Shown here one piece after another: positions 25,593-41,322 of a DNA stretch of 64,000 bases. Every line of letters begins with the position of its first letter. Position 1 is the stretch's first letter. This DNA is from Gemmatimonadaceae bacterium. GTDB lineage: Bacteria; Gemmatimonadota; Gemmatimonadetes; Gemmatimonadales; Gemmatimonadaceae. The stretch spans positions 124,001 through 188,000 of the forward strand of contig JADLCY010000013.1 of NCBI GenBank assembly GCA_020846935.1. The letters run 5' to 3'. The notes below the pieces were generated by a model. That model saw only the letters and a program-made list of their open reading frames with translations, was not told where the DNA came from and did not search any database. Position numbers and translations under genes: made by a program.

Positions 25593-26606
25593 TTACGATG
25601 AAGAACCGGGCTCCCGCGGCGGAGCCTGTGTCGGGTCGTCGACGCTCCGGAGCAGCGCCTCCAGCGCACTCTCGCGGTCCCGCTGTTCCGTGGCCGCATC
25701 CGACGCGCGCATCTGCGCCAACCGCACGCGATCGCGCCGCCGCCGGATCACATACAGCGGGGCGACGATCACGAGCAACGCGAGCGTGCCCACCGTCACG
25801 TCCGCGAACAACGCCAGCCCGCCGTACCGCCGTCGAGTCTGCTCGATCCAGCGGCGTTCGAAGCCGCCCAGCGTGAGTCCATACCCGCGTCGGAGCGCGC
25901 GATCCAGGCTCCCCTCCTCGCGCCAGTACCGAAAGAGCAGCGTCAGCCCGCGCGCCTCGTCGAGCGCCACCAGCTCCGCGACGGCCCGATACGACAGCGC
26001 GTACGCGGCGTCGGCCTCGCCGCTGCCCGCCGCGAATCCGGAGTCGAGACCGGCAAGGGTTCGATACCGACCGAGCGCCAGGCCAAGGTTGGCGGCGATC
26101 ACCTCCTCGCGGCCCCACTCGCCGGCCGCCCAGGACGCATACCCCTCGTCGAACCAGCGGGGCGGAAGGTCACCCAGCGCCTCATGCAGGGCGAGGTGAG
26201 CGAGCTCGTGCCGGAGAACCTGCCGCGGATCGCCCGCACTCGATGGCGCCGATCGACCCTGCATCACCACGCGCCGTTCGGCCGGGAAGGCAAACGCCGC
26301 CCCCCACTCCGGCGCGTGGTCACCGACCAGAGCGCGAAAACTCCGCTGGTCGGCCGCGATCTGGATGAGCACGGTCGCACTCGGCCGCGGCAATCCCGGA
26401 AACGTGTCCGTCGCCACCGCGCGCGCGGCCAGTGCGCTCGCGAGCAGGCTATCCTCGGGTTCGGCAACGATGGTGAAGCGCCCCCGATCGATGCGGACCC
26501 CCGTCGATTGCGCCCCGCCAACGTCGGCGAGGAGCCCCAGGATCAGCGCACCGGCTCGTGACCAGCGTCGACCTGCCGCAAGAGCTCGGCACAGCGCTCG
26601 GCCCAT
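25593..26606 (-). CDS. Membrane-anchored MA-type zinc metallopeptidase
   Basis: From the ATG at 26606 the product is 337 residues with an N-terminal signal (about 15-33). The gluzincin motif HELAH is at 133-137 and the third-ligand segment WFDEGYASW at 151-159, with Glu154 the likely third zinc ligand. This matches the peptidase MA-like family. A membrane helix at about 268-288 is followed by a basic, charged cytoplasmic tail. The active site should therefore face the periplasm. The start overlaps the end of the upstream TPR gene by 64 bases. The substrate is unknown. Confidence 0.85.
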   Translation of the reverse strand: MGRALCRALAAGRRWSRAGALILGLLADVGGAQSTGVRIDRGRFTIVAEPEDSLLASALAARAVATDTFPGLPRPSATVLIQIAADQRSFRALVGDHAPEWGAAFAFPAERRVVMQGRSAPSSAGDPRQVLRHELAHLALHEALGDLPPRWFDEGYASWAAGEWGREEVIAANLGLALGRYRTLAGLDSGFAAGSGEADAAYALSYRAVAELVALDEARGLTLLFRYWREEGSLDRALRRGYGLTLGGFERRWIEQTRRRYGGLALFADVTVGTLALLVIVAPLYVIRRRRDRVRLAQMRASDAATEQRDRESALEALLRSVDDPTQAPPREPGSSS

Positions 26607-27403
26607 GGATTGAACTTGTTCGTCTGTGCCCCGTCGCGCCACGCGTCCCGGGCGGAGCCGCGGTCACCGGCAAACCAGAGCGCACGACCCAGCTCATACC
26701 AGGCCTCGACCAGATTGGGACCGAGTTTGATGCTCTTGCGGAAGAAGTTCTGGGCGTCGTCGTACATCTCGCGCTCGAGATACAGCAGGCCGAGGTAGTA
26801 GTGCGCGTACAGCGTGGCCTTGCGGTCGTTGTCGAGGCGGATGGCGCGAGACAGGTGCTCGATCGCTTCCCCGAAGATCCGCTTCTTGAGGCAGATGTAG
26901 CCCACGTTGATGCGGGCCAGCGAGTTGAGCGGCTCCTTCATGAGGACGCGCTGGAAGTGCAGCAGCGCGTCATCGTATTTCTCCTGCAGCATGAGCGCCC
27001 AGCCAAGGATCGACATGGCCTGCGGATCGTTAGGCGCGAGGGCGAGCGCCTTGTCGAGCGCGGCGACGGCGCCGGCGTGATCGCCCAGCGACAGGAGGCT
27101 CCAGCCCTTCTCGATGAAGGTCGACGCGTTGAGGTGATCCTCGCGCGACGGCGCAGGCGGCGCGGGCGCGCCCAGCCCTTCATCGCTGGTGCCCGAGGGA
27201 TCGAGCAGCTTCCACTGCTCCACGAGGCTCTTCACCTGCGCCTTGAGCTGCTCCAGCGCCTGCAATTCGCGGTCGATGCCGCGGTAGAGCGTGATGATGC
27301 CGGCCTTGAGCTCATCGCGCCGGCCCGCGGCGCCGGGCGCGGCGATGGCGTCGGCGAGACTCGCGAACTCGCTGGCGAGCGGCGCGTGCAGGACCTCAGG
27401 CAT
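26543..27403 (-). CDS. TPR protein at the end of the chemosensory cluster
   Basis: This 286-residue soluble protein has an N-terminal helical region (about 1-65, coiled-coil-like), a short Pro/Ala linker, and five or so TPR units from about 95 to 275. It overlaps the upstream cheW by eight bases and is probably its operon partner. TPR proteins in chemosensory clusters usually act as scaffolds, but the partner here is unknown. A CCTAACG motif copy at 27028-27034 encodes Pro-Asn-Asp. Confidence 0.85.
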   Translation of the reverse strand: MPEVLHAPLASEFASLADAIAAPGAAGRRDELKAGIITLYRGIDRELQALEQLKAQVKSLVEQWKLLDPSGTSDEGLGAPAPPAPSREDHLNASTFIEKGWSLLSLGDHAGAVAALDKALALAPNDPQAMSILGWALMLQEKYDDALLHFQRVLMKEPLNSLARINVGYICLKKRIFGEAIEHLSRAIRLDNDRKATLYAHYYLGLLYLEREMYDDAQNFFRKSIKLGPNLVEAWYELGRALWFAGDRGSARDAWRDGAQTNKFNPWAERCAELLRQVDAGHEPVR

Positions 27404-27878
27404 TGGCCGCCTCCGTCACGCCCGAAGCGACGAGCGCGAGGCGCTCGCTCGCGCTGAAGAGGTGCGCCGCATCGAGCAGCAACACGAGCGCGGACCCTCG
27501 GCGCAGGGTGCCAAGGACCAGCGAGCCGGCCAGGCCGCGCACCAGGCCCGGCGGTGGGGCGAGTTCCCCGGCGGCATACGGCCGCACGTCCAGCACCTGA
27601 TCGACCACCATGGCGCACCAGTCGCCGTCGAGCGCGAGCAGGAGCAATCGCGTCTGCGCGCCGGCGTCCGTGACCTCCGCACCGAGCCGTCGCCGGATAT
27701 CGACGACGGGAATCACGCGCCCATCGAGTTCGACGATCCCTTCAATCCAGTCGGGCAGGCGCGGCACAGGCCTCGGCGTTACGTACCGCACGACGCGTTC
27801 GACGCCCTGCACGTCCACGGCAAAGAGATCCGCGCCGATACGGAACGTGACCGCCCGCGCCTGATCGAAGGTGCTCAT
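27396..27878 (-). CDS. cheW: CheW-like chemotaxis coupling protein
   Basis: CheW is the SH3-like adaptor connecting receptors to the CheA kinase. The 160-residue product covers the whole CheW domain, with the typical core near WIEGIVELDGRVIPVVDIRR. The frame is open upstream to 27995, but that part overlaps the next cheW and homology begins at the ATG at 27878, which overlaps the upstream stop as ATGA. It is one of three CheW proteins in the cluster. A longer C-terminal extension holds PYAAGELAPPPG. Confidence 0.9.
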   Translation of the reverse strand: MSTFDQARAVTFRIGADLFAVDVQGVERVVRYVTPRPVPRLPDWIEGIVELDGRVIPVVDIRRRLGAEVTDAGAQTRLLLLALDGDWCAMVVDQVLDVRPYAAGELAPPPGLVRGLAGSLVLGTLRRGSALVLLLDAAHLFSASERLALVASGVTEAANA

Positions 27879-28381
27879 CGTCCGCCTCGCGCGATCGCCG
27901 CAGCCGCGGCGGTGACCATGGCGCGGGCGTCCACGACGGCGAGCAATGTCGTGCCGTCCCAATGAACGGCGAGCAACAGGTCGTCGCCATCCCACGGCGG
28001 CTGGCGGAGGGCCGACAGCTCAATACTGCACACCTCATCGACGTCGTCCACCAGCAATCCGAGCTGCTCGTTCCCGCGCCGCATCACGAGGACCGTGCCA
28101 CCCTGCCCACCGTCCACACCGAGGAGCGCGGTGGCGCGAACGACGGCGAGCGACCGGCCGGCGTACTGACATACCCCGGCCATCGCCGGGTCGGCGGCGG
28201 GGAGCGGGTACAGCACCGGCGCCTCGACCACTTCTTCGACGGCGCGCACATCGCAGGCAAAAACCTCGTCGCCGACGCGAAAGACAAACAGCTCGGCGGT
28301 CCCGATGCGCGCACGCACCCGATCGCGAAAGCGAACGGGAACGGTCTCGTTAGGTATGACGGGGGTGCTGGCGGAAGGCAT
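27875..28381 (-). CDS. CheW-like chemotaxis coupling protein
   Basis: This is a second, divergent 168-residue CheW domain protein (LFVFRVGDEVFACDVRAVEEV, then GVCQYAGRSLAVVRATALLG). The usual strand with RG..P(V/I) is changed to YAGRSLAVV, so receptor or kinase specificity may differ from the other CheW proteins. It is translationally coupled to the downstream cheW. It follows cheB after a 95-base gap that holds a G+C-rich inverted repeat (about 28439-28453) but no ORF. Confidence 0.88.
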   Translation of the reverse strand: MPSASTPVIPNETVPVRFRDRVRARIGTAELFVFRVGDEVFACDVRAVEEVVEAPVLYPLPAADPAMAGVCQYAGRSLAVVRATALLGVDGGQGGTVLVMRRGNEQLGLLVDDVDEVCSIELSALRQPPWDGDDLLLAVHWDGTTLLAVVDARAMVTAAAAAIARGGR

Positions 28382-28476: not shown

Positions 28477-29577
28477 TCATCGACCGCGTGACGCGGCGCA
28501 CAGGCGTGCCATCGCGTCGGGCATGGCCTCGAGCGGCAGCACGGCATCCGCTGCGCCAGCGGCGAGAACCGCCTGTCCCATGCCGCTCACCACGCACGTC
28601 TCGGGATCCTGTACGATCATCGCGCCCCCCCCGGCGCGAACCGCCCGAGCGCCCTGCGCGCCGTCGCGGCCCATCCCGGTCAGAACGACCCCGATGCACC
28701 CGGCACCGAAGACGGACGCGAGGCTCGCAAAGGTCACGTCGGCCGCTGGCCGGACGCCATGCACAGGTGCGTCGTCCCCGAGGACACAGCGCACCACATC
28801 GCGAGCACCGCGCGCGGCGCGCAGGTGCCAACCGCCGGCGGCCATGTAAACATGACCGGCCAGGAGCGGCATGCCGTCGCGCGCTTCGTGCACCGGACGT
28901 GGCCCGAGCTCGTGCAGGCGCGCAGCGAGGCTGCCAGTGAAGCCGGCCGGCATGTGCTGGACGATCACGATGGCCGGAACCAGCGCGCGGGGAATGGTCG
29001 GCACCAGCGCAGCAAGCGTGCGCGGCCCGCCCGTCGATGCCGCGATGGCGATCACCGACGTCGCCGCCGCTTCGGGTCGTGCACCGGTCACCGCCTCCGA
29101 GCGAATCGGCGACGCACGCCATCGACGCGGCTCAGGTACGGAACGAGCGAGTCGATCCACGCGACCGGTCCCCGCTTCGCGCAACGCCTGGAGCAGCCGA
29201 CGACCTAACGTCTCGACATCGAGCGTTTGCGCCCATGACGGCTTGCGCACGAAGTCCACGGCGCCGAGTTCGAGGGCGCGAATGGTTGCGTCGCCGCCGG
29301 CGGCGGCTTCCTGTCCGCTGAGCACGACGACGGGACGCGGGCACTCGCTCATGATGTAGCCAAGGGCCTCGAGTCCGCTCATGCCGGGCATCTCGATGTC
29401 GAGCGTCACGAGGTCGGGCCCGAGCGCGTGCACGAGTCGCACGGCCTCGTGCCCATCGGCGGCTTCGCCGGCCACGCGCAGATCGGCGCTGGCCTCGATC
29501 GCGTCGCAAACGACGCGACGGATGAACGCCGAGTCGTCGACCACCAGCACGCTGCGCCTAGAGGATCCGCCGGCCAT
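28477..29577 (-). CDS. cheB: Chemotaxis protein-glutamate methylesterase/deamidase CheB
   Basis: CheB removes methyl groups from, and deamidates, chemoreceptors when phosphorylated by CheA. The 366-residue protein has a receiver domain with the acidic pair Asp14/Asp15, phosphoacceptor Asp60 and Lys112. The C-terminal methylesterase domain has the catalytic triad Ser181 (in STGGP), His208 (in QHMP) and Asp305 (in GMGRDG). All key residues are intact. It overlaps cheD by 20 bases. No CheR or receptor gene is in the window, so its substrates are encoded elsewhere. Confidence 0.97.
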   Translation of the reverse strand: MAGGSSRRSVLVVDDSAFIRRVVCDAIEASADLRVAGEAADGHEAVRLVHALGPDLVTLDIEMPGMSGLEALGYIMSECPRPVVVLSGQEAAAGGDATIRALELGAVDFVRKPSWAQTLDVETLGRRLLQALREAGTGRVDRLARSVPEPRRWRASPIRSEAVTGARPEAAATSVIAIAASTGGPRTLAALVPTIPRALVPAIVIVQHMPAGFTGSLAARLHELGPRPVHEARDGMPLLAGHVYMAAGGWHLRAARGARDVVRCVLGDDAPVHGVRPAADVTFASLASVFGAGCIGVVLTGMGRDGAQGARAVRAGGGAMIVQDPETCVVSGMGQAVLAAGAADAVLPLEAMPDAMARLCAASRGR

Positions 29578-30055
29578 GGCGCATCGAGACGACGCGGACT
29601 TCCCCGGTCGCGACGTCGAAGTACACGCTGCGGCCGTAGTCGCCCCCGACGTCTTCGCCGATCAGGGGGATGCCGCTCGCCGCCAGCCGCTGCTTCACGG
29701 CATCGACGTTGCGCTCTCCCATGTTGACTCCCGACGAGAGGAGCGCGCCGAACATCGAGGCGCCGCCGACGATGCGTGCGACGGGCTGAGCCCGCGAGCC
29801 GTGGCGTCGCATCTCGTTCAGGAGGAACGGCACCGCGGTCGAGCCGAACTTGGCCGGGCGCGACCGGTCTCGCGACAAGGACTCGTGAGGCAGGAGCACG
29901 TGTGCGAGTGCGCCAACGCGCGCCACGCCGTCGTGCAGCATGACCGCCACGCACGACCCGAGCCCGACCGACGACAGGACGCCTCGTTCAACAAGGACGC
30001 CCCAGGCCGCGACCGGGACGTGCGTCTCGACGGGCACGAGCGTCGGCGTCGTCAC
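29558..30055 (-). CDS. cheD: Chemoreceptor glutamine deamidase CheD
   Basis: CheD deamidates specific glutamines of chemoreceptors and can activate the phosphatase CheC, which is encoded in the same cluster. The 165-residue protein has the conserved GLGSCVAV with nucleophile Cys35 and the LAHVLLP segment with His52. The start is GTG at 30055, overlapping the DUF4388-TPR gene stop as GTGA. The end overlaps cheB by 20 bases, so cheD and cheB are likely co-translated. Confidence 0.95.
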   Translation of the reverse strand: MTTPTLVPVETHVPVAAWGVLVERGVLSSVGLGSCVAVMLHDGVARVGALAHVLLPHESLSRDRSRPAKFGSTAVPFLLNEMRRHGSRAQPVARIVGGASMFGALLSSGVNMGERNVDAVKQRLAASGIPLIGEDVGGDYGRSVYFDVATGEVRVVSMRHGRRIL

Positions 30056-31668
30056 GCCGGTCGCCGGGCGCGATCGAGGTGCTGTCGGGCCGCGGGATTC
30101 TCCGGTGCCAGGGCAAGAGACCGCTCCCAGCAGCGCGTGGCATCATCGAGCTCGCCGCGAGCATGGCGCAGGTTGCCCAGCGCGAGCCACACGTCCCCCC
30201 CGAGGTCGGGCACGAGGCGCACGGCGCGCGCGTAACACTCGAGGGCATCGGTGGCCTGGCCCGCTGCGCCATGAAGGTCGCCGCGGTTCTTGTGCAACTG
30301 CGCGAGGGTCGGCGCCTCCTGCAGGCCGCGATCGAGATGGGCGGCCGCCTCGCCGCCGCGCCCACGCCGTTCGAGCACCACCGCGAGATTGTTGGCCAGC
30401 ACGGCATTGTGCGGGTGCAGCGACGCGCCCTCGGACAGGATGGCGATCGCGCGATCGAGTTCTCCGAGGTACGCCGCGGCAAGTCCGGCGTAGTGATACC
30501 ACGCCGCCGCGCGCGGCCGACCGTCGCCGCGGAGCGCCGAGGCGCGCAGGGCGACGTCGGCCGCCTCCACGTCGCCTCGACGCAGGGAGAGCACCGCTCC
30601 GGTCAGCAGCACCGATGGATCGTTAGGCAGGAGGCGCTCGGCGGTCGCGTGAGCGGCCCGGGCTTCGTCGAAGCGGCCGAGCTTCTCGAGCGCATAGGCG
30701 AGGTTGGCGTGCAGGGCGCCCTTGCCGGGCGCACGGGCCACCGCCCCTCGCAACACGCGCACGGCCTCGTCGTGGCGGCCCTGCCGGATCGCGAGCAGGC
30801 CAAGGTAGAACTCCGCCTGCACGTCGTGGGGCTGCAGGTCCGCCACGCGCCGGAACTCGCGCACGGCTTCGTCCAGCATCCCCGATTTGTAGAAGGCCAC
30901 GCCGAGGTTGCTGTGCTCGGCCACGCGCGTGGCAAGGGCCGGCGCGTCCTGCGTGCGGCGTCGCCCCACGCGATGGAGGAATCCCGCCGTGATCAGCCCG
31001 AACAGCGCCTTGCCCATCTCGAACTCGCCGAGTCCCGACAGGTCCATCAGGGCCGCGACGTCGCGGGTTCCATCGATCAATGGCAACACCGCATCCTGAT
31101 CCATCGTCAGCTCGACGCGGGACGCCTCGAGATGCGTCCGGTCGAGGGCAAACACGCAGTCGAATCCGGGAATCTTCTTCTCGATCAGGCTCCACTCATC
31201 GATGCGCCGCGCACCCTCGAGCAGCAGCGACTCGGGGTTGATCGATACGACGAAGTCCTGCTCGTCCGGCGTCACGTCCGCCTCGAACGAGAACGTGCCC
31301 TGCGTCCAGGTGAAGAGGTAGTACACTGCCTCCTCGATCTGCCGCTTGATGTGCTGGTGGAGTTCTTCGCGCGCCAGGAAGTCCTTCGCGACCAGGATCT
31401 CGCCCAGCCGCCGATCGGGCTGCGAGGCCTGCTCGGCGATGGCAATGTCCAGCTGCTCACGGGCGATGATCCCGTTGCTCACCAGCAGGTCGCCCAGCCG
31501 GTCGCGCCGGTTGACGATGCTCGCGAACGCAATGCGTCCCCGTTCGAAATAGATGCTTCCGAAGGCGTTCTTGTGCGTGACCGAGAGGCAACCGGTCTTC
31601 TTCCCCATCGCCAACAACTGGAGAACGTCCGTGAGGCTGGCCTCGCGCAGGGAACCGCGGATCGCCAT
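30052..31668 (-). CDS. DUF4388 (PATAN) protein with C-terminal TPR array
   Basis: The 538-residue product starts at ATG 31668, overlapping the upstream stop as TGATG. Residues 1 to about 240 form a DUF4388/PATAN-type region: LREASLTDVLQLLAMGKKTG, GSIYFERGRIAFASI, two LG(D/E)(L/I)LV repeats and TWTQGTFSFE. Residues about 260-535 form around eight TPR units. PATAN domains are known from cyanobacterial chemosensory regulators such as PatA. A partner role for the CheA/CheY or MglA proteins is inference from context. It is homologous in its N-terminal half to the protein at 34123-35271. Confidence 0.88.
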   Translation of the reverse strand: MAIRGSLREASLTDVLQLLAMGKKTGCLSVTHKNAFGSIYFERGRIAFASIVNRRDRLGDLLVSNGIIAREQLDIAIAEQASQPDRRLGEILVAKDFLAREELHQHIKRQIEEAVYYLFTWTQGTFSFEADVTPDEQDFVVSINPESLLLEGARRIDEWSLIEKKIPGFDCVFALDRTHLEASRVELTMDQDAVLPLIDGTRDVAALMDLSGLGEFEMGKALFGLITAGFLHRVGRRRTQDAPALATRVAEHSNLGVAFYKSGMLDEAVREFRRVADLQPHDVQAEFYLGLLAIRQGRHDEAVRVLRGAVARAPGKGALHANLAYALEKLGRFDEARAAHATAERLLPNDPSVLLTGAVLSLRRGDVEAADVALRASALRGDGRPRAAAWYHYAGLAAAYLGELDRAIAILSEGASLHPHNAVLANNLAVVLERRGRGGEAAAHLDRGLQEAPTLAQLHKNRGDLHGAAGQATDALECYARAVRLVPDLGGDVWLALGNLRHARGELDDATRCWERSLALAPENPAARQHLDRARRPA

Positions 31669-33485
31669 CAGCCCAGGTCCTCCAGCAAGCGCCCCGTCGG
31701 CTCCGGCCACTCGGCGACCACCTTCTCGGAGTCGAAGAAGAACGAATCAAGGGCGCGACGCGCCGAGGTCGCCTCGGTGACGCCGGCGCCAACGGCGACC
31801 GGTTCCCGCTCCTCGGGCACCATCGTCGGGTCTGCGGGCGCATCGATCGTCGGTGCGGCCGCCTCGTCGCCCTCGGGCACCGGCGTGTGGCGTCCGAGCC
31901 GATCCGCCGGTCCCGGCGGCGCCATGGTGACCACGAGCCCACGCTCGACGACCGTGCGCAGGCGATCGGCAATGCCGAGGTAGGCCGAGAGTGGGCGATC
32001 GCTGGTAAGCACCACCGGTCGCTGCTCGGCGCACACCGCGGTGAGGAGTCGCAGCAGCTCGTCCTGCACGGCCTCTCGTCCATCGATCGCCTGGAGACCG
32101 TCGATGATGAGTGCGTCGACCGCGCCGAAGCGCGAGCGCCAGGACTCGAGGCGTTCCTGGTGGATCGCCTCCGTCAGTTCATCGACCAGCGAAGACCCGC
32201 TCACGCAGGCAATGCTCCGACCGGCGCCATGACGGGCCGCGAGCACGTTGCCGATCGCATGCGCCAGGTGCGTCTTGCCTGACGCCGTTGGCCCCACGAT
32301 GAGCAGCGGGTTGGCAGCGCGTCCTGGCGCGTCCGTGATCGTGGCCGCGGCGTGCATGGCGGCCCGGTTCCCGGCGGTGCGCACGAGCGAGGCCATGCTG
32401 TACTCCGGCAGCGGTCCGGGCGGAGGGTCCGTCGCGGCGAGCGCACGGCGCACCAGCCGCTCCGCTTCGGGAAGCCGATCGGGATCACGAAAGACGGCCT
32501 GCCCGGCGAGCGACGGGTTGACCGCAATGGCCTGACTCTCGAGCGCGCGCAACCGTTCGGTGACCGCGGCGAACGCGGCATCGAGTTGCGGCACGTCAGG
32601 GGCTTCGGGGAGTTCGAGCGCCTGTTCGAGGATGGCAGTGCGAAAGCCCTGCCCGGACCACCACGCGATGCGCTCGCCGAGCCGAAGGCGCCACCCATCC
32701 ACCGAGGCCGCGACACCGCTCGCCACATCCTGCAGAAACGACGTGAACTCGTCGGACGGCCCGACCGCGACCGCACCCCCAATGACGTCGCGCACCTCAG
32801 CCACCGAGAGTGGTTCAGCGCTGCGCGACTGCCGGGCAATGAGCCGATGCAGCGCCGCTTCCATCTCGCGCACGCTCGCACTCGAGCCCCTGGCGAGTTC
32901 TTCGAGGACGCCGTGACCAAAGCTGGTGCGGCGGTCTGCGCATTTGCGCTGGAGGATGGCGACGCGCGTCCCGTGGTCGGGCGCGCCCAGGTCGACGATG
33001 AGCCCGCCGGAGAGTCGGTTGAGCAGCCGGTCGTCCACGTCGGCGATGTCGGCGGGCGCGCGATCCGAGGCCATCACGATCTGGCGGCCGCTGCTCTGCA
33101 GCGCGTTGAAGACGCGCAGCACCTCACTCTGCGTCTCACGGCGACCGGACAGGGCCTGGACGTCATCGAGCAGGAGGAGCCCCACGGTCAGGTAGCGCCG
33201 CTTGAACGCCTCGGCCTGTCCCGTTGCGATGGCAAGGTGCAATTCCTCGACGAACCCCTCGAGGGTCACGTACACGACCGAAAGCGTCGGGTGCAGTGAC
33301 TGTGCGCGGTGACCAATGGCGGCGAGCAGGTGCGTCTTCCCGAGGCCCGGCGGCCCGAACACAAAGAGCGGATTGTAAACCGCGCCCGGGTGCTCCGACA
33401 CGTTGCGCGCCGCCGACACTGCCAGGCGGTTGGCATCGCCGACCACGAAGGCCTCGAAGGTGAACTGCGCGTCGGGGAGCGTCAT
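31668..33485 (-). CDS. Protein with two tandem DnaA-like AAA+ modules, no DNA-binding domain
   Basis: Residues 8-220 match DnaA domain III closely: FTFEAFVVGDANRLA, Walker A GPPGLGKTH (44-52), Walker B LLLLDDVQ (103-110), sensor 1 ASDR (139-142), an arginine-finger-like region with Arg157, and sensor 2 SVREMEAAL (204-212). Residues about 362-525 repeat the fold: Walker A GPTASGKTH (398-406), Walker B ALIIDGLQ (458-465, second acidic residue replaced by Gly) and sensor 1 TSDRP (494-498). A helical linker joins them. The C-terminal DnaA helix-turn-helix is absent; instead there is an acidic linker and a tail with SFFFDSEKVV and GRLLEDLG. It lies four bases past the mglA stop. The frame extends to 33593, but homology starts at ATG 33485. 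Confidence 0.9.
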   Translation of the reverse strand: MTLPDAQFTFEAFVVGDANRLAVSAARNVSEHPGAVYNPLFVFGPPGLGKTHLLAAIGHRAQSLHPTLSVVYVTLEGFVEELHLAIATGQAEAFKRRYLTVGLLLLDDVQALSGRRETQSEVLRVFNALQSSGRQIVMASDRAPADIADVDDRLLNRLSGGLIVDLGAPDHGTRVAILQRKCADRRTSFGHGVLEELARGSSASVREMEAALHRLIARQSRSAEPLSVAEVRDVIGGAVAVGPSDEFTSFLQDVASGVAASVDGWRLRLGERIAWWSGQGFRTAILEQALELPEAPDVPQLDAAFAAVTERLRALESQAIAVNPSLAGQAVFRDPDRLPEAERLVRRALAATDPPPGPLPEYSMASLVRTAGNRAAMHAAATITDAPGRAANPLLIVGPTASGKTHLAHAIGNVLAARHGAGRSIACVSGSSLVDELTEAIHQERLESWRSRFGAVDALIIDGLQAIDGREAVQDELLRLLTAVCAEQRPVVLTSDRPLSAYLGIADRLRTVVERGLVVTMAPPGPADRLGRHTPVPEGDEAAAPTIDAPADPTMVPEEREPVAVGAGVTEATSARRALDSFFFDSEKVVAEWPEPTGRLLEDLG

Positions 33486-33489
33486 GTGC

Positions 33490-34095
33490 CTAACGCCCCG
33501 CCGGCTGCGGCGCCGCGAGGCGCTGGAGCACGAGCTGCGAGACCTTGCGCAGGGTCTCGAAGACCCCGGTTCCCGCCAGTGCATCGGCCGCAAAGCTCGG
33601 GACGCCGCGGAAGTTGAGGGCGGCGTCCAGTTCCCCGCGACTCATCACGAGGTCGGCGGGCAGATCCTGCTTGTTGTACTGCAGGACCAGCGGCAGCGCG
33701 CGCGCGTCCACGCCCTGCTCGGCAAGCACCTCATGCATGTCGCGGAGGCTTTGCAGGTTCTCCTCGCGTTGCCGGCGCTGCGAGTCGGCAACAAAGACCA
33801 CGCCGTCTGCACCCTGGAGCACGAGCTTGCGCGTCGAGCGGTAGTACACCTGCCCGGGCACCGTGTAGAGCTGGAAACGCGTGGCGAACCCGGACACGGT
33901 GCCCAGGTCGAGCGGGAGGAAGTCGAAGAAGAGCGTCCGTTCGCTGTGTGTCGCCAGCGACACCATCGAACCCCGTCGCTCCGGCGGCACGCGATCGTGG
34001 ATATAGTGCAAGTTCGTCGTCTTCCCCGAACGCCCGGGACCGTAGTAGACGATCTTGCAGGTCAGCTCCCGCGCCGGGTAGTTCACGAGCGGCAT
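33490..34095 (-). CDS. mglA: MglA-type small GTPase
   Basis: This is a Ras-like GTPase of the MglA family, which in Myxococcus sets cell polarity for gliding and type IV pili. The 201-residue protein has G1 GPGRSGKTT at 19-27, the MglA-type switch 2 TVPGQVYY at 78-85 (no Asp as in Ras DTAGQ) and G4 NKQD at 141-144. Its GAP (MglB) is not adjacent. It lies between the DUF4388 gene and the double DnaA-like gene. Its stop TAG falls within a CCTAACG motif copy (33489-33495). Confidence 0.93.
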   Translation of the reverse strand: MPLVNYPARELTCKIVYYGPGRSGKTTNLHYIHDRVPPERRGSMVSLATHSERTLFFDFLPLDLGTVSGFATRFQLYTVPGQVYYRSTRKLVLQGADGVVFVADSQRRQREENLQSLRDMHEVLAEQGVDARALPLVLQYNKQDLPADLVMSRGELDAALNFRGVPSFAADALAGTGVFETLRKVSQLVLQRLAAPQPAGR

Positions 34096-34122
34096 CGGTC
34101 CCTCCCGGCTTCGTGGCGGTGC

Positions 34123-35271
34123 TTACGCATCGACGGCCTCCAGCACCGCGGCGAGCTGCGAGGCGTGCGCGATGGCGTGCCGTGCCTGTTCGCCCAGCGG
34201 ACTCTCCGGACACGCGGCGAGCACGCGCTGCCATGACTCGATCGCCCGCGCAAGCTCTCCATGGCGCGCGGCCAGGCGGGCGCGCTCCATCAACGCCCCC
34301 GCGTGCGCGGCGTCGGCCTCCAGCGCGATGCGCAATTCCTCGGCGGCCTCCGCTTCGCGACCCTGGCGCAGGAGCACCCGGGCGAGGGTGGAGCGTGCTT
34401 CCGGATCCTGCGGCGCCAGCGAGACGGCAGTTGCTGCCCGCGCGAGCGCGTCATCGAGCCGTTCGGCCAGCAGCGCATCCCGCGCCTCGGCAAGGCACGT
34501 GGCCAGATGTTCGCCTGAACGGTCGGGCTCCGTCGCGTCCGTCGGCGCCAGCACGTCGATCACGGCGATGGTCGCGAGCCCGAACGCAATGCGGGCCACC
34601 TCGAACTCTGAACGCTCGAGCGTGCGCGCGATGGCGCGCAGGTCCTGCACGCCATCGACCAGCGACAGGACCTCCCACTCGTGCGGGAGCAGATCCAGTC
34701 GTGAAGGCGCGATGCCCTCCTCGGCCTCGGCCAGCACCGGGATCACGGCGAGGCTCGGGATGCGCTGCTGAATCTGCGTCCATTCATCGAGGCGTCGCGC
34801 ACCCTCCATGAGCAGCGACTCGGTGGGAAGGGCTACCATACCCTCGGCCCCCGCCGGTGCCTGTACGTCTTCCTCGGCAAACGAGAAGAAGCCCTCCTGC
34901 CACGACAGCAGTTCGAAGACGACGGTTTCCACCTGACGCATGATCGCGCGCTCGAGTTCGCGCACCGAGACGACGTGCTGCGCCACGAGGATCTCGCCCA
35001 GGCGCCGGTCCTCACCGGGGGCCTCCTGCACGGCGCGCGCCCGCGCGAGGTCCGCTTCCGTGATGCGTCCCGAGCGAAGCAGGAGCGCACCGAGCGGGTG
35101 CGGATTCGATCGAATCGTCGCTGCGACGATGCGTCCGACGCGAAAGTACACCGTCCCCTCGTTGTCGCGCAGGGCAGACGACACGCGAAGGCGTCCCGTC
35201 TTTCGGCTCAGGTCCAGCAGTTGAAACACGTCGTGGATGCCAAGCTCGCGGAGCGGTCCCTCGATCGCCAT
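34123..35271 (-). CDS. DUF4388 (PATAN) protein with short C-terminal TPR-like region
   Basis: The 382-residue protein has an N-terminal DUF4388/PATAN-type region (LRELGIHDVFQLLDLSRKTG, GTVYFRVGRIVAATI, LGEILVAQHVVSVRELE, SWQEGFFSFAE) up to about 225, then helical repeats to the end (DPEARSTLARVLLRQGREAEAAEEL and following). It parallels the protein at 30052-31668 but has fewer repeats. It abuts the 899-residue TPR gene without a gap and precedes mglA by 27 bases. It is probably cytosolic. Its role is unknown. Confidence 0.87.
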   Translation of the reverse strand: MAIEGPLRELGIHDVFQLLDLSRKTGRLRVSSALRDNEGTVYFRVGRIVAATIRSNPHPLGALLLRSGRITEADLARARAVQEAPGEDRRLGEILVAQHVVSVRELERAIMRQVETVVFELLSWQEGFFSFAEEDVQAPAGAEGMVALPTESLLMEGARRLDEWTQIQQRIPSLAVIPVLAEAEEGIAPSRLDLLPHEWEVLSLVDGVQDLRAIARTLERSEFEVARIAFGLATIAVIDVLAPTDATEPDRSGEHLATCLAEARDALLAERLDDALARAATAVSLAPQDPEARSTLARVLLRQGREAEAAEELRIALEADAAHAGALMERARLAARHGELARAIESWQRVLAACPESPLGEQARHAIAHASQLAAVLEAVDA

Positions 35272-37962
35272 CTAGGCCGCCTCCCCGTGCGCCGCGCCGA
35301 GCAGCCGCTCGCGCATGGCCATCGCCGTGCGGGCATCTCGTGCCGCACGCTGTGCGTATTCGCTGTCGGGCGCGAGACCCGCGACGCGTTCCCACCGCGC
35401 GAGGGCCAGTGCGTACTCGTGCTCCTCGGCCAGCAACACGCCCTCGAAGTAGAGCGCGGCGACGTGCTCCGGGACAAAGCGAAGAATGCGGGCGAAGGCG
35501 AAGCGCGCGTCGGCGCGCCGCCCCGCGAGAAACAGCGATTCACCCAGCATCGCCAGGGCGTCGAAGTGATACGGGTCGTCGATGAGGAGGGCGGCGAGCG
35601 GTTCGACGCTCTCCCCCGCGCGCCCCAGGTCGCGCCGAAGTCTGGCAAGCGCCAGCACGACGACGGCGTCTCCGGATGCGGCACCTGCGAGGGTTGCGAA
35701 GACCCCTTCGGCTCCGGCCACATCGCCGGCGTCCGCGAGCAGGTGCCCCAGTTCGCCCGCGATTTCGGCGTCGTCGGGCGCGAGAGCCCAGGCGGCGCGC
35801 ATCGCCGTCACAGCGTCGGGCACATCGCCCAGGCGCACGTGCAAGCGAGCTACCTCGCGGAGCACACGGGGTTCTGCCGCTGCCAAACGATGCGCAGCGC
35901 TCAGGCCCGTACGCGCATCGTCCGGGCGTCCCGTTTCCGCGCGGACGCAGGCGGCGAGCAACTGCACCTCGGCGCTCTCGGCTCGATGCGAGGCGAGCCA
36001 CTCCGCGGGCGCCGCCGCCTCGGCGTATCGCCCAAGCGCCACCAGGGCGCGCACCTCGCCTTCGGCGGCCGGTCCGTGCGCACTGTCGTGTCGGCGCGCT
36101 TCACGGAAGCGTTCGAGCGCCTCACCGCTCGCGCCGCGCGCGAGGAAGACGCTTCCGGATGCCACGAGCCCATCGACGCGGGGGCCTCCCGCTCCCATGA
36201 CGCGTCGGACCTCCGCCGCCGCGCGATCGTGGTCGCCTTCAGCCAGAAGCGTCCACACGCGCGCATAGGGCGACTCGCCGAGCGCCTCCACGCGGCCCTC
36301 CGGAGCCAGATCATCAAAGAGCGTTTCGAGTGCGCTCTCCTCGAAGGCAAACGAGCGGACCGTCGCGTCGCGCCGCGAACCACTGAATTCCGGCGGAACC
36401 TCCAGGCGCGTGGAGGCCTGCTCGATGTCCAGCTCGAACTTCTGCGGCGCGTAATACGCGTCCAGTTCGAGAGCGCGCTGCGTCTCACGCAGGGCGCCCT
36501 CGTGGTCTCCGAGGTTCGTGAGCGCAAACCCGAGGTTGTAGTGCGCCTCCGCGTACGACGGTCGCGCCTCGATCGCGCGCGAGTACGCGGTCCGCGCGTC
36601 GTCGAACCTCGACTGGCCCGCCAGCACCAGCCCCACGCCGTTCCAGGCCACCGGGTGTTCCGGCGAGAGGCGCAGCACCTGACGATAGGTGGCGAGCGCT
36701 CCCTCGACCTCGCCGTGCCTTACGAGCAGGTACGCGAGGTTGAGTCGGGCCTTGAGTCCCCCGGCGTCCAGGGCGAGCGCGCGCGCAAACGCGTCGCGCG
36801 CCTGCGCCACGTCGCCGGCATGGCAGGCGGCCACGCCGAGGTTGTTGAGCGCGGCCGCGTGCGCCGGGTCCGCGGAGAGTGCGCGACGATAGCTCTCGCG
36901 CGCCTCCACGTATCGGCCACCGTGATGCAGCGCCACGCCACGCGCATTCCACAGCCGGGCGTCATTCGGGCGCTCGGCCACGAGGGCTTCGTAGAGCGGC
37001 AGGGCCGCGGACGTGTCTCCGCGCAGCAACTGCACCTCGGCCATCGCCTGCCGGACGAGGAAGGCGTCCTCGCCGCGATCGAGCGCCTGGGCGAACTCGC
37101 GCAGCGCATCGTCGAGGTAGTGCTTGTGCCGGAACGCCAGGCCCAGGTTGTAGTGCGTCATCTGCGACGCGTCCTGATCTTCGTGAGCGAGGATGCCACG
37201 GGCTTCGCGCGCCACCCGCGCCTGCTCGTGCGACCCGCGGTCGAATCGCTCGAGGGAAAGGTTCGCACGCGCGCGCCCGAGGGCCGGGTTGAGGCGCAGC
37301 GCGCGCGCGGCGATCGCCTGCGCCGACTCGTGCTCCCCCAGATCGCCCAGCACGAAACCCAGCAGGTACGTCGCCTCGGCGTGATCCGGCGCCAACTCGA
37401 TCGCGCGCTCCAGCGCGCGCCGGGCCTCGTCGTTCATCCCGCGATGATACGCGACCTCTCCAAGTTGAAAGTGCACATCCGCGTCGTCAGGCTCGAGATC
37501 GAGGGCGTGCTGCAGCCACTGCGACGCGGAGACCAGATTCCCGGCCCTCGCTTCGGCAGCGGCGACCTGCCGCACGAGCGGCACGTCATCGGGCGCGTCC
37601 CGCAACAACACGCTGAACGCCGCCAGCGCCCGGGGAATGTCTCCAAGCAGCAGATGCATGCAGCCCAGCGACCACCGCGCCTCTCGATCCCGGGCATCGC
37701 GCGTCAGCTGCGCCTCGAGCGTCGCGAGCCGGTCGTCATAGTACCCGCTGGTGAAGTACGCGATCTCGATGTTGCGCTGCGCGATCGTCATGCGGGCATC
37801 GAGGTCGAGGGCGCGCGTGAACGCCCCCACGGACTCGGCGATCATGCCCTTGGTGAAGTAGAGCACGCCAAGGTTGTTGAGCGCGCCCGGGTCGGACGCA
37901 TCGATCCGATGCGCGAACGACCGCAGGATCGCCTGGTCGCGTGCCGAGGGCTGCGTCATCAT
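35272..37962 (-). CDS. Very long TPR protein
   Basis: From ATG 37962 (alternatives are GTG 37971 and ATG 37959) the product is 896 residues made almost wholly of tetratricopeptide repeats. About ten clear units fill 25-410, for example DPGALNNLGVLYFTKGMIAESVGAFTRAL. A variable insert (about 425-520) follows, then a second array to about 880. No signal peptide or catalytic motif is seen. It lies 30 bases past cheC and is followed without a gap by the DUF4388 gene. It is likely a cytosolic scaffold of the chemosensory/MglA system; that role is inferred from position. Confidence 0.85.
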   Translation of the reverse strand: MMTQPSARDQAILRSFAHRIDASDPGALNNLGVLYFTKGMIAESVGAFTRALDLDARMTIAQRNIEIAYFTSGYYDDRLATLEAQLTRDARDREARWSLGCMHLLLGDIPRALAAFSVLLRDAPDDVPLVRQVAAAEARAGNLVSASQWLQHALDLEPDDADVHFQLGEVAYHRGMNDEARRALERAIELAPDHAEATYLLGFVLGDLGEHESAQAIAARALRLNPALGRARANLSLERFDRGSHEQARVAREARGILAHEDQDASQMTHYNLGLAFRHKHYLDDALREFAQALDRGEDAFLVRQAMAEVQLLRGDTSAALPLYEALVAERPNDARLWNARGVALHHGGRYVEARESYRRALSADPAHAAALNNLGVAACHAGDVAQARDAFARALALDAGGLKARLNLAYLLVRHGEVEGALATYRQVLRLSPEHPVAWNGVGLVLAGQSRFDDARTAYSRAIEARPSYAEAHYNLGFALTNLGDHEGALRETQRALELDAYYAPQKFELDIEQASTRLEVPPEFSGSRRDATVRSFAFEESALETLFDDLAPEGRVEALGESPYARVWTLLAEGDHDRAAAEVRRVMGAGGPRVDGLVASGSVFLARGASGEALERFREARRHDSAHGPAAEGEVRALVALGRYAEAAAPAEWLASHRAESAEVQLLAACVRAETGRPDDARTGLSAAHRLAAAEPRVLREVARLHVRLGDVPDAVTAMRAAWALAPDDAEIAGELGHLLADAGDVAGAEGVFATLAGAASGDAVVVLALARLRRDLGRAGESVEPLAALLIDDPYHFDALAMLGESLFLAGRRADARFAFARILRFVPEHVAALYFEGVLLAEEHEYALALARWERVAGLAPDSEYAQRAARDARTAMAMRERLLGAAHGEAA

Positions 37963-37992
37963 GACCTGCACCGTGCGTCGCGAACCGTGCGT

Positions 37993-38613
37993 TCAGTCCA
38001 TGCGCATCGCGCGCAGGAGGGTGCGCAGCGACGTCATGTCCGGCAACAGCAGGAAGTAGCCGCGCAGACGTTCGGCCGCGTCCTGCATGAGGAACTCCGT
38101 CTCGACGCAGAACACGAGGTCGCGGTCGCTGCCGAACTGGAGGTAGGCCGTCGTGAGCACCGCCTGCGCCATGTCGATCGCGAGCGATGGCGGCGAGGGC
38201 ATCAGCATGAGTCCCATGAAATCGCTGAGGGCGTTCATGTACGCGCCGCTCAGGATGTTGCCCGCCTCGCGGATCGCCGACTGCTCCAGTTCGGACAGCT
38301 CGTCGCCACCGATGTGGGCGCGCCGGGTCATGATCTCGGCCATGCGGATGGCCGTCGGTCGCGGGAACACGAGGAGCGTGCGACCCGTGAGGTCACCCAC
38401 CATGTTCATCAGCACCGCCGCCACCGGTTCGCCCGGATCGCCGATGTGCGGCGGGACGTCTTCCAGGGGCGTGATGTTGATCGTCGGCACCGAGATCATG
38501 ATCGTCTGGCCCGTCATGAGTGACAGGGCCGTCGCCGCGTGACCGGCGCCGATGTTGGCGACTTCACGCAGCGCGTCCAGCTGCATCGGCTTGAGCGCGA
38601 GTAGGTCCTGCAT
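37993..38613 (-). CDS. cheC: CheY-P phosphatase CheC
   Basis: CheC dephosphorylates CheY-P and partners CheD. The 206-residue protein carries both active-site motifs: D13-x3-E17-x2-N20 in LDALREVANIG, and S112-x3-E116-x2-N119 in SAIREAGNIL. The rest shows the CheC/FliY fold pattern. The ATG overlaps the cheA stop as TGATG, so the kinase and phosphatase are translated together. FliY is excluded by the absence of its extra C-terminal domain. Confidence 0.95.
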   Translation of the reverse strand: MQDLLALKPMQLDALREVANIGAGHAATALSLMTGQTIMISVPTINITPLEDVPPHIGDPGEPVAAVLMNMVGDLTGRTLLVFPRPTAIRMAEIMTRRAHIGGDELSELEQSAIREAGNILSGAYMNALSDFMGLMLMPSPPSLAIDMAQAVLTTAYLQFGSDRDLVFCVETEFLMQDAAERLRGYFLLLPDMTSLRTLLRAMRMD

Positions 38614-40490
38614 CAGTGCTCCTGGAGAAGTCCGCCCACGTCGAGGATCAGGGACGCCGACCCGTCGGACAGGATCGCCGCTCCCGTGCAGGCGATCGCG
38701 TCCTTCGCCGCGTCGAACGCCTTCACGACGATGTCCTGTTGACCGTCGAGCCGGTCGACGGCGATCGCCGCCCGCCGATCCGTCACCTCGACAATGACGA
38801 TTTGCTGCCCCATCACGTCCCGCACGGGGAGCCCCACCAGCTGCCGCAGCGACAGCAGGGGCAACACCTCGTTCCGGAGCACAAACACCTGCCGGCCGCG
38901 GAGGGGCCGGACCGCGCCCGCTGCGGGCTGGAGCGTTTCGGTGACGTGCGTCAACGGCAGGGCGTACGATTCGTCCCCAACGCGCGTGATCACCGTGGGG
39001 ACGATCGCGAGGGTGACCGGCAGCCGCAGCTCGAACACCGTGCCCCGACCCTCGACCGTGGAGAACACCACGGTCCCGCCGAGGGCCCGCACCTTGGCCA
39101 GAACGGCATCGATGCCCACTCCACGCCCCGAGACTTCGCTGACCCGCTCGGCGGTCGAGAAGCCCGGTCGGGAAATGAGGCGTAGCACATCGTCGTCAGA
39201 GAGCTCTTCCGTGGTTTCAGGCACCCAGCCGCGCGACCTGGCCGTGGTCAGGATGCGTAGCCGATCGACCCCCCGACCATCATCGGCGACCACGATGACC
39301 ACCGCACTCCGTTCGCGGCGCGCGATCAGTTTGATGCGCCCAACCGACGGCTTGCCGGCGGCACGTCGCGCGTCCGGCGCCTCGATCCCGTGATCCACCG
39401 CGTTGCGGAGGAGATGCACGAGCGGATCCGCCACCTGCTCCAGCAGCGTTCGGTCCAGTTCGATCTCACGGCCCTCGAGCGTGAGCGCGACGTCCTTCCC
39501 CACGAGCCGGGCCGCGTCGCGCACCACGCGTGGAAACCGATCGAACACCTGCCAGACAGGGACCATTCGGCTCCCGAGCACCCCGTCCTGCAACTCACCG
39601 ATCAGTCGGGCGGCCTTCGCGACCGTCTCGTCGAGTGCGCCGTCTTCATGCGCGGCCGCGAGCACCTGCAGCCGGCCGCGCACGGTCACCAACTCTCCCA
39701 CCAGGTCGAGCAGGTGGTCGAGGCGACGCAGTTCGATGCGGACGTATCGCTGAAGGGGCGCCTTGAGATCCCGGGTCGCCCAGGCGTCGTCCGCCGTGGC
39801 GTTGCCGGCGGTGCGCGGCGAGGCGGGCGCGCTGATGCGCACCTCGCGCACGTCACCACAGCCACATACCAGTTCCCGGATCGTCTCGTCGTCCTCGGTG
39901 GTCTCGATGAAGACCGTGAAGCGGCCGTCGAATCCCTCCGCCCAGAGCGCCGCATCGGCCGGCTGCGTCCCGTGCACGGTACCAACGGTGCGCAGCTTGT
40001 CCGTGATGATCCGCGCCCGCGCGCCCGGCAGCGGCGCGTCGGGCTCGAGCTGGATGCGCACCGGCAGGCCAGCCAGGAGCAGCTCGGGCATCGCCGGCGA
40101 AACAGCCGACGGAGCGCCGGGTTCACCGGCGCCGGCCAGGCGGCGAACGAGCGACGCCACATCGAGAGCGGTCGGCCGCCCTTCGGTCGCCACCTCGACC
40201 GCGCGCGCCAGGGCATCCGCGGCCTCGAACAGCATGTCGATCGTCCCGGGGCCTAACGACTCTTCTTCGGCTCGCACCCGGGCCAGGCGCGTTTCCATCG
40301 CGTGGGACAGCTCAGTGACGGTGCTGTACCCCATCACCCCGCTCATCCCCTTGAGCGTATGGACCGATCGGAAAAGCGCGTCGATGGGCTCGCGCGCCTG
40401 GGGATCAGCCTCCAGCTGGAGCAACGCATGCTCCATGGCCGTGAGGTAGTCACGGCTCTCGGTGACGAACAGCTCGGCGTACTTGTTCAC
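38613..40490 (-). CDS. cheA: Chemotaxis histidine kinase CheA
   Basis: CheA is the sensory kinase that phosphorylates CheY and CheB. The 625-residue protein has the HPt domain with phosphoacceptor His44 (HTLKG), a regulator-binding region (about 155-225), the dimerisation helices with LLDLVGELVTVRGRLQ (about 260-275), the ATPase domain with HLLRNAVDHGIE and the DDGRGVD box, and a C-terminal CheW-like domain (about 490-620). All core motifs are present. The start is GTG at 40490, 15 bases downstream of cheY. A CCTAACG copy at 40252-40258 encodes the rare TTA leucine. Confidence 0.97.
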   Translation of the reverse strand: MNKYAELFVTESRDYLTAMEHALLQLEADPQAREPIDALFRSVHTLKGMSGVMGYSTVTELSHAMETRLARVRAEEESLGPGTIDMLFEAADALARAVEVATEGRPTALDVASLVRRLAGAGEPGAPSAVSPAMPELLLAGLPVRIQLEPDAPLPGARARIITDKLRTVGTVHGTQPADAALWAEGFDGRFTVFIETTEDDETIRELVCGCGDVREVRISAPASPRTAGNATADDAWATRDLKAPLQRYVRIELRRLDHLLDLVGELVTVRGRLQVLAAAHEDGALDETVAKAARLIGELQDGVLGSRMVPVWQVFDRFPRVVRDAARLVGKDVALTLEGREIELDRTLLEQVADPLVHLLRNAVDHGIEAPDARRAAGKPSVGRIKLIARRERSAVVIVVADDGRGVDRLRILTTARSRGWVPETTEELSDDDVLRLISRPGFSTAERVSEVSGRGVGIDAVLAKVRALGGTVVFSTVEGRGTVFELRLPVTLAIVPTVITRVGDESYALPLTHVTETLQPAAGAVRPLRGRQVFVLRNEVLPLLSLRQLVGLPVRDVMGQQIVIVEVTDRRAAIAVDRLDGQQDIVVKAFDAAKDAIACTGAAILSDGSASLILDVGGLLQEH

Positions 40491-40505: not shown

Positions 40506-40868
40506 CTATCCCAGCACGCGCTGCACCGCCTCCAGGACGCGGCTCGGCTGGAACGGCTTGACCACGAAATCCTTCGCCCCGGCCTGGATGGCTTCGACCA
40601 CCAGGGCCTGCTGACCCATGGCGCTGCACATCAGCACGCGCGCCGCCGGATCCTGGCGGGTGATCTCGCGAACGGCGTCGATGCCCCCCATGTCGGGCAT
40701 CACGATGTCCATCGTCACGAGATCCGGCTTGAGCGTGCGGTACCGTTCCACCGCCTGCGCGCCCGTTTCGGCTTCACCGATGATGTCGAAGCCGGCCTGG
40801 GAGAGGATGTCCCCCAGCATGGTGCGCATGAAAATGGCGTCGTCGCAGATGAGTACGGAGTGGCTCAC
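40506..40868 (-). CDS. cheY: Chemotaxis response regulator CheY
   Basis: This stand-alone 120-residue receiver has acidic pocket Asp9/Asp10, phosphoacceptor Asp54 (TMDIVMPDM), Ser82 in the switch position and Lys104 (VVKPF). It lacks an output domain, so it should act by binding a target. CheC and CheA are encoded next to it. Whether the output is a flagellar switch, a pilus motor or the MglA system cannot be told from the window. Confidence 0.95.
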   Translation of the reverse strand: MSHSVLICDDAIFMRTMLGDILSQAGFDIIGEAETGAQAVERYRTLKPDLVTMDIVMPDMGGIDAVREITRQDPAARVLMCSAMGQQALVVEAIQAGAKDFVVKPFQPSRVLEAVQRVLG

Positions 40869-40905: not shown

Positions 40906-41322
40906 CTATGCCAGCGACTGCCTCACGAGCTCCTGCACGTCCACCAGCAGGACGACCGACTCGCCAAAGTGTCCCATTCCTGAAATGATCCGAGCACCAC
41001 CAGCCGTGGTGGCCGGGCCGTCAGCGAACTCGTCCGCAGGGATGACTTCCCGGACTTCGTCCACCAGGACGCCCAGCGTCTTGCCCTCGGCGGCCAGGAT
41101 GACCACGTCGGGGTCGGGGGCCTCCGACGGGTTTCCGGTCACGCGGTGCGCCAGATCGAGGACGGTGACGAGATGACCGCGCACATTCGCCAGGCCGCGC
41201 ACGTCGGCACTGGTGCCCGGAAGCCGCGTGGTCACCGGCATCGCGGTGATCTCCCGGACCGTTTCCGACGGGAGCGCGTAGAGGCGCCCCCCCGCCTGAA
41301 CGACAAGCACCTGTCGCGTCAT
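40906..41322 (-). CDS. cheW: CheW chemotaxis coupling protein, first gene of the cluster
   Basis: The 138-residue protein is a single CheW domain (GGRLYALPSETVREIT, VRGLANVRGHLVTVLDL, LGVLVDEVREV). It keeps the VRGLxNVRG segment usual for receptor- and CheA-binding CheW proteins better than its two paralogues downstream, so it is the best candidate for the core coupling protein. It overlaps the rluD end by four bases, so the chemosensory genes may be read from the same transcript as the lspA-rluD block. Confidence 0.93.
   Translation of the reverse strand: MTRQVLVVQAGGRLYALPSETVREITAMPVTTRLPGTSADVRGLANVRGHLVTVLDLAHRVTGNPSEAPDPDVVILAAEGKTLGVLVDEVREVIPADEFADGPATTAGGARIISGMGHFGESVVLLVDVQELVRQSLA

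Follow-up and report, generated by a model that had tools for sequence, protein, structure and literature searches.

The question raised by the locus described here is whether a protein built on the ATPase domain of the replication initiator DnaA has to serve replication at all. DnaA domain III is regarded as a switch dedicated to replication, and its relatives known to lack a DNA-binding domain (Hda) are, to our knowledge, also regulators of replication. The window analysed, a stretch of 64,000 nucleotides from a Gemmatimonadaceae bacterium (GenBank assembly GCA_020846935.1, contig JADLCY010000013.1, positions 124,001 to 188,000), encodes a protein with two successive DnaA-type AAA+ modules, here named DnaA2, whose gene lies in an operon of chemosensory genes, next to that of the Ras-like GTPase MglA. 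The interpretation that we favour, with slightly more than even confidence, is that DnaA2, a paralogue of DnaA domain III, has no part in replication and works as a scaffold or adaptor under the control of ATP in an MglA/chemosensory pathway of the Gemmatimonadota; a switch of replication may in this way have been turned to the control of movement over surfaces.

Domain identity of DnaA2

It is confirmed that DnaA2 is an open reading frame (ORF) with two modules of the DnaA domain III type and without the DNA-binding domain of DnaA. The position and the length of 605 residues given in the original prediction, which was made from the sequence alone, are correct, to which the minus strand is now added: translation begins with an ATG at 33485, 4 nt beyond the mglA stop, while the plus-strand reading is interrupted by stops. 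At the other end, the stop codon (TGA) and the start codon (ATG) of the downstream gene, PATAN2, share bases in the sequence TGATG. A chance or frame artefact is ruled out because the protein is conserved phylum-wide and its motifs stay in register. The two-module match is also not due to chance, because a genome-wide search recovers module 1 with 179.8 bits (E 1.2e-52) and module 2 with 112 bits (E 8.4e-32).

The Pfam family PF00308 (Bac_DnaA) matches DnaA2 twice, with a total of 285 bits (E 2.6e-85), and its sole other match in the genome is the true DnaA, encoded on another contig (225 bits). DnaA2 gives no match to the helix-turn-helix family PF08299, and the linker between the modules and the C-terminal tail match no Pfam family, with nothing at E<=1, which agrees with the proposed absence of a DNA-binding domain. 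The same scan assigns to the true DnaA of this genome both PF08299 (86 bits) and PF11638. The latter family, which corresponds to DnaA domain I, is not matched in DnaA2, a protein that opens at the FEAF segment of domain III.

Structure comparison with DnaA domain III, Hda, and DnaC leads to the same assignment, with models built from thin alignments (4 and 2 sequences) and a mean predicted local distance difference test score of 73 and 77. The AlphaFold model of module 1 is closest to DnaA domain III (Z 31.7, 1.3 A over 237 residues, with 38% identity to Bacillus subtilis DnaA across 237 residues), followed at a distance by Hda (Z 20.9) and IstB (Z 19.3). Module 2, modelled alone, is also closest to DnaA (Z 17.8, 2.5 A, 159 residues), with lower scores for IstB (Z 14.9), DnaC (Z 14.1), and Hda (Z 14.0). 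Both modules are thus placed in the DnaA clade by hidden Markov models (HMMs), trees, and fold, and not outside the DnaA/DnaC clade. Against the Hda model TIGR03420, DnaA2 reaches 125.2 bits, below the cut-off of 194.8 (the best relative listed scores 181), and against the IstB/IS21 helper model NF038214 it reaches 101.7 bits, below the cut-off of 200. An identity as an anti-phage defence protein was also considered and rejected, as nothing beyond weak generic AAA+ matches was obtained.

Phylogenetic analyses separate the DnaA2 family from true DnaA (support 100/93) and group the second modules in one clade (100). How well the module 1 clade is supported varies with the model used, from 40% in a plain LG tree to 100/99 in another tree. 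A duplication after the split of the single-module lineages is disfavoured (approximately unbiased test, p 0.0175), and for this reason the single-module forms are probably losses.

An ATP switch that has lost its grip on DNA

Module 1 had been described as following DnaA domain III from the FEAF segment through sensor 2, and it does so with the full set of ATP-switch residues. In the window protein these comprise the Walker A K50, the Walker B D107/D108, R153, the arginine finger R157, and the sensor 2 R206; Walker A, Walker B, sensor 1, the trans arginine finger, and sensor 2 are all present. Module 1 of 43 family proteins was compared with 29 true DnaAs of the phylum, using Escherichia coli residue numbers put on the alignment by hand. 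The Walker A Lys and the Walker B Asp pair are invariant in module 1 (43/43 each), and the sensor 1 Asp (39/43), the arginine finger (39/43), which is R285 in DnaA (PMC5448010), and the sensor 2 Arg (38/43) are nearly so. The situation is different for K243 and V211, two residues of DnaA with roles in single-stranded DNA (ssDNA) contact (PMC8235120). The equivalent of K243 is Lys in 29/29 true DnaAs versus 4/43 first modules, and that of V211 is Ile or Val in 29/29 true DnaAs and mostly His, Thr, Ala, or Glu in module 1. To judge from these residues, the ATP switch is complete in module 1, from which the ssDNA grip of DnaA has been lost.

Module 2 had been proposed to be a more divergent repeat of the same motifs. 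Its Walker A (GPTASGKT) and its DnaA fold stand, but in the window protein the Walker B is degenerate (DG instead of DD), the arginine-finger position is occupied by Val, and neither a lid nor a sensor 2 is present; both ssDNA-contact positions are altered here in the two modules. Many relatives have an intact module 2. In families f1-f3, most copies retain the residues of the ATP site and those of ssDNA contact (Ile/Val in 23/27, Lys in 21/27); in f4-f5, little is left of the ATP site, and the arginine finger is retained in 9/9. According to this alignment, module 2 is decaying in different ways in different lineages.

A conserved operon and an obligate partner

Relatives of DnaA2 were searched for in 298 Gemmatimonadota genomes and are present in most families of the phylum. 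A scan of genome contigs with DnaA2 as the query, seeded on short exact peptides, gave matches solely in Gemmatimonadota, and plasmid records yielded true DnaAs only, with no tandem protein. A true DnaA is also encoded in every genome examined. Reading of 43 loci from 42 genomes (two of them, L034 and L037, apparently represent the same contig) revealed one conserved operon in families f1, f2, f3, f4, f6, and f9, with the consensus order CheW-CheY-CheA-CheC-TPR-PATAN-(Roadblocks)-MglA-DnaA2-PATAN/TPR-CheD-CheB-CheW-TPR. In all but one of the loci of these families, the next recognised gene upstream of dnaA2 is mglA. Most operon-bearing genomes hold TPR-Roadblock, Roadblock, and MglB-like genes between PATAN1 and mglA, a trio that the genus of the window lacks at this site. 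In f5, rluD, dnaA2, and PATAN2 lie together with no Che or Mgl genes beside them, and mglA is found at another locus, adjoining cinA and pgsA.

Co-occurrence was analysed in 80 genomes outside the order of the window, 40 of them scored as DnaA2-positive and 40 as DnaA2-negative, with statistics that ignore phylogeny. PATAN2 was first scored in 40/40 positive versus 2/40 negative genomes, and both exceptions were found to encode DnaA2, which brings the pair to 42/42 versus 0/38. MglA is encoded in 40/40 versus 14/40 (p 6e-11) or, by genus, in 30/30 versus 7/23 (p 2e-8). In the tested set, therefore, DnaA2 and PATAN2 are paired without exception, and no genome with DnaA2 lacks MglA. The original prediction had pointed to the place of the gene after mglA and between two PATAN genes; both observations are borne out, with the refinement that the obligate partner is the downstream PATAN2, not mglA. 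As for a possible output, PilT is found in 39/40 positive versus 27/40 negative genomes (p 7e-4) and the flagellar protein FlhA in 8/40 versus 3/40 (p 0.19), and these counts say that pili are a better-fitting output than flagella.

A two-motif core with zero, one, or two ATPase modules

The linker that connects the two modules is predicted to be helical. It contains a conserved motif A, EFxxFLxD(V/I)xxxVxxxVExW, followed by W.GEG(F/Y)xTxxLE and FRDPDRLxEAE, and shows no convincing match among PDB sequences (best E 0.27). A second motif, B, ends the protein and is conserved among relatives with zero, one, and two modules. The two-module form is found in f1-f5 and the one-module form in f6, f9, and the f1 genus g8. 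No AAA+ domain is present in the short ORF that separates mglA from PATAN2 in genera g3 and g13, but this ORF holds motif A as EFxxFLxDV...V and motif B as VxEWP....RxIEEL. Both were detected in a set of 2968 ORFs by two HMMs used separately, with E 2e-5 to 1e-3 and 4e-5 to 2e-4. In g22, the linker and motif B remain and the AAA+ domain is absent. Because these AAA+-less relatives keep them at the same locus, motifs A and B look like the constant core of the family, while the ATPase resembles an addition to it, lost from at least g3, g13, and g22.

A further form was observed at L109:7271-11023 (genome G079), where a strongly eroded single-module remnant of DnaA2, reaching motif B, lies between mglA and PATAN2.

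Proposed role and alternatives

The suggestion that this gene belongs to signalling or polarity rather than to replication is supported by the phylum-wide operon, by the complete co-occurrence, within the tested set, with one PATAN-TPR gene and with MglA, by the loss of the ssDNA residues in module 1, and by the lineages that kept the operon when the ATPase was lost. In the scaffold proposed here, ATP would drive head-to-tail assembly of module 1, with the arginine finger of each copy acting on the ATP of its neighbour, as in DnaA. This assembly would cluster copies of motifs A and B, which may bind PATAN2 and perhaps MglA, and it would be reset when ATP is hydrolysed or through the state of module 2. 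The clustered PATAN2 could then act on the type IV pilus motor, at a place or time determined by MglA and the Che proteins. In its simplest form, the pathway would run from the Che array and MglA through DnaA2-PATAN2 to the pilus motor. This motor is proposed as the target of PATAN2 because PilB, which drives pilus extension, is bound by PATAN domains in regulators from cyanobacteria (PMC10519157, PMC9090330); in Myxococcus, according to two reports, type IV pili are controlled by MglA (PMC7519303, PMC7668184). The ATP site and the partner evidence are read directly from the sequence; oligomerisation, binding, and output we infer.

Several points weigh against this proposal. The partners of motifs A and B are putative, and the co-occurrence statistics for MglA and PATAN2 take no account of phylogeny. 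The association with PilT is weak when calculated by genus (p 0.07), and the genome of the window encodes FlhA, so the output there could be flagellar. The link to Che proteins is not obligatory, because f5 keeps DnaA2-PATAN2 without adjoining Che or Mgl genes. Finally, in genome G216 (L122:2735-5887) DnaA2 and PATAN2 are read as a single ORF of 1051 codons, while its congener G221 encodes them as two genes; seen in one metagenome-assembled genome, this ORF may be a natural fusion or the product of a lost stop and, although it speaks for the pairing, is only suggestive.

Among the alternatives, the one that survives best, unlikely as we consider it, is that the ATPase remodels or regulates MglA itself, for example as an exchange or release factor, and is not a scaffold for PATAN2. 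The gene mglA is usually directly upstream, DnaA2 does not occur without MglA in the tested set, and the genus of the window has lost its operonic Roadblock (MglB-type) genes. However, the pairing with PATAN2 is tighter than that with MglA, mglA is located elsewhere in f5, and MglA is also encoded in 14/40 of the DnaA2-negative genomes.

Somewhat less probable, and less likely than the scaffold, is a role similar to that of Hda, in which DnaA2 would offer its arginine finger to domain III of the true DnaA and thereby couple signals of motility or polarity to the start of replication or to the cell cycle. All genomes examined also have a true DnaA, module 1 is nearer to DnaA domain III than to Hda and retains the arginine finger and sensor 2, and module 2 of f1-f3 preserves much of the ssDNA-contact set. 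Against this, the N-terminus, MTLPDAQFTFEAF, does not show the clamp-binding motif of the QLxLPL type found in Hda, and the score of DnaA2 against the Hda model is below the cut-off. Moreover, the presence of DnaA2 follows PATAN2 and MglA, not the universal DnaA, and the lineages devoid of the ATPase retain the position in the operon and the motifs.

About as improbable as the previous one is the idea that the output is flagellar and not a matter of pili, in which case the operon would direct chemotaxis of swimming cells, with DnaA2 as an accessory chemotaxis protein. It would fit with the FlhA of this genome and with the CheC, CheD, and CheB genes of the operon, but FlhA is not detectable in 32/40 DnaA2-positive genomes, while PilT is encoded in 39/40. 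That DnaA2 is a decaying paralogue with little present function is very improbable: active-site losses in module 2 differ by lineage, including that of the window, and one or both modules are missing in some lineages, but the active site of module 1 has hardly varied across deep divergence, members with a complete C-terminus retain motifs A and B, and the gene position and translational coupling are conserved.

The operon in the window

In the window, the genes follow on the minus strand in the order rluD, CheW, CheY, CheA, CheC/X, large TPR, PATAN1-TPR, MglA, DnaA2, PATAN2-TPR, CheD, CheB, CheW, CheW, and TPR (Table 1). Besides FlhA, the genome encodes PilB above the cut-off.

Table 1. DnaA2, its parts, and the genes of its operon, with positions counted along the window
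Feature	Position	Strand	Remark
CheW	40906..41322	minus	
CheY-like receiver	40506..40868	minus	
CheA histidine kinase	38613..40490	minus	
CheC/CheX-type phosphatase	37993..38613	minus	
Large TPR protein	35272..37971	minus	
PATAN1	34123..35271	minus	DUF4388 (PATAN) + TPR
mglA, Ras-like GTPase	33490..34095	minus	Arf/Ras family match
DnaA2, tandem DnaA-type AAA+ protein, 605 aa	31668..33485	minus	two PF00308 domains
DnaA2 module 1, residues 6-238	32772..33470	minus	full DnaA domain III with lid
DnaA2 helical linker, residues 246-352	32430..32750	minus	no Pfam match
DnaA2 module 2, residues 361-525	31911..32405	minus	AAA+ core without lid
DnaA2 motif B, residues 580-605	31671..31748	minus	FFxDxEKVVxxWPxxxxRLxEEL
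PATAN2	30052..31668	minus	DUF4388 (PATAN) + TPR; obligate neighbour of DnaA2
CheD	29558..30055	minus	
CheB	28477..29577	minus	
CheW	27875..28381	minus	
CheW	27396..27995	minus	
TPR protein	26543..27403	minus	conserved final gene of operon block

Downstream of the operon, positions 25593-26642 encode a peptidase-like protein with a C-terminal membrane helix, a gene retained also in f5 (L065:12888-14099), whose locus is devoid of Che and Mgl genes. In the genus of the window no gene separates PATAN1 from mglA (34095-34123), where most relatives have three, as seen at L035:6661-8358 and L040:6816-8601. An MglB-like gene persists beside a second mglA on another contig (L118:8223-9413, G000 contig 11), in the order dnaX-recR-mglB-mglA-pgsA-cinA, and this second MglA shows an extra stretch near its C-terminal part relative to the MglA of the operon.

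Relation to known systems and significance

DnaA2 shares with DnaA the domain III fold, Walker A and B, sensor 1, the arginine finger, and sensor 2. Unlike DnaA, it has two modules and neither domain I nor the helix-turn-helix of domain IV, its module 1 has lost the ssDNA contacts, and it is encoded in a che/mgl operon of a genome with a separate true DnaA. Hda/HdaA, the inactivator of DnaA, is likewise a domain III relative without a DNA-binding domain, but it consists of one module preceded by a clamp-binding motif, whereas DnaA2 has two, is devoid of this motif, and is nearer to DnaA. The helicase loaders of the IstB/DnaC/DnaI type belong to the same AAA+ clade and give the next-best fold matches; their HMM and fold scores are lower, and the context of DnaA2 includes neither a transposase nor a helicase.

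With the MglA-MglB-RomR/Frz polarity system of Myxococcus xanthus, which controls type IV pili, the operon has in common the Ras-like MglA, Roadblock proteins, and a chemosensory array. We know of no DnaA-type ATPase in that system. The mglA gene of M. xanthus is not near its signalling partners (PMC4316618). PATAN domains are also found in the PATAN-REC regulators of Synechocystis (PixE, PixG, and others), where they take part in type IV pilus control, but in the operon described here this domain is joined to TPR and not to a receiver, and it has a DnaA-type ATPase as its partner. In a survey of Ras-like GTPases from prokaryotes, MglA genes were reported to be near PATAN genes in some cases, without mention of DnaA (PMC4316618). 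Among the open-licence papers searched, no description of the DnaA2 family was found, nor any link between DnaA and MglA, DnaA and PATAN, or Gemmatimonadota and MglA.

The family also has a bearing on annotation. The cut-off of the NCBIfam DnaA model TIGR00362 (343.9) is exceeded by the window protein (379 bits) and by six two-module relatives that were scanned (350-523 bits), because the two module scores add up; these proteins pass it without DnaA domains I or IV, neither of which is required by the cut-off. Automated annotation may hide two-module members under the name DnaA, and the wrong gene could be selected when dnaA or oriC is sought in genomes of Gemmatimonadota.

A broader proposal, to which we give slightly less than even weight, is that a DnaA-family ATP switch may have moved from replication to a nucleotide-gated scaffold in MglA polarity and type IV pilus control, existing in tandem, single, and ATPase-less forms around a constant two-motif adaptor. 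The series of zero, one, and two modules at one locus constitutes a set of natural variants for what the ATPase adds. If a DnaA paralogue does work throughout the phylum in a chemosensory/MglA operon, the ATP-dependent assembly module of DnaA would be reusable for cell polarity.

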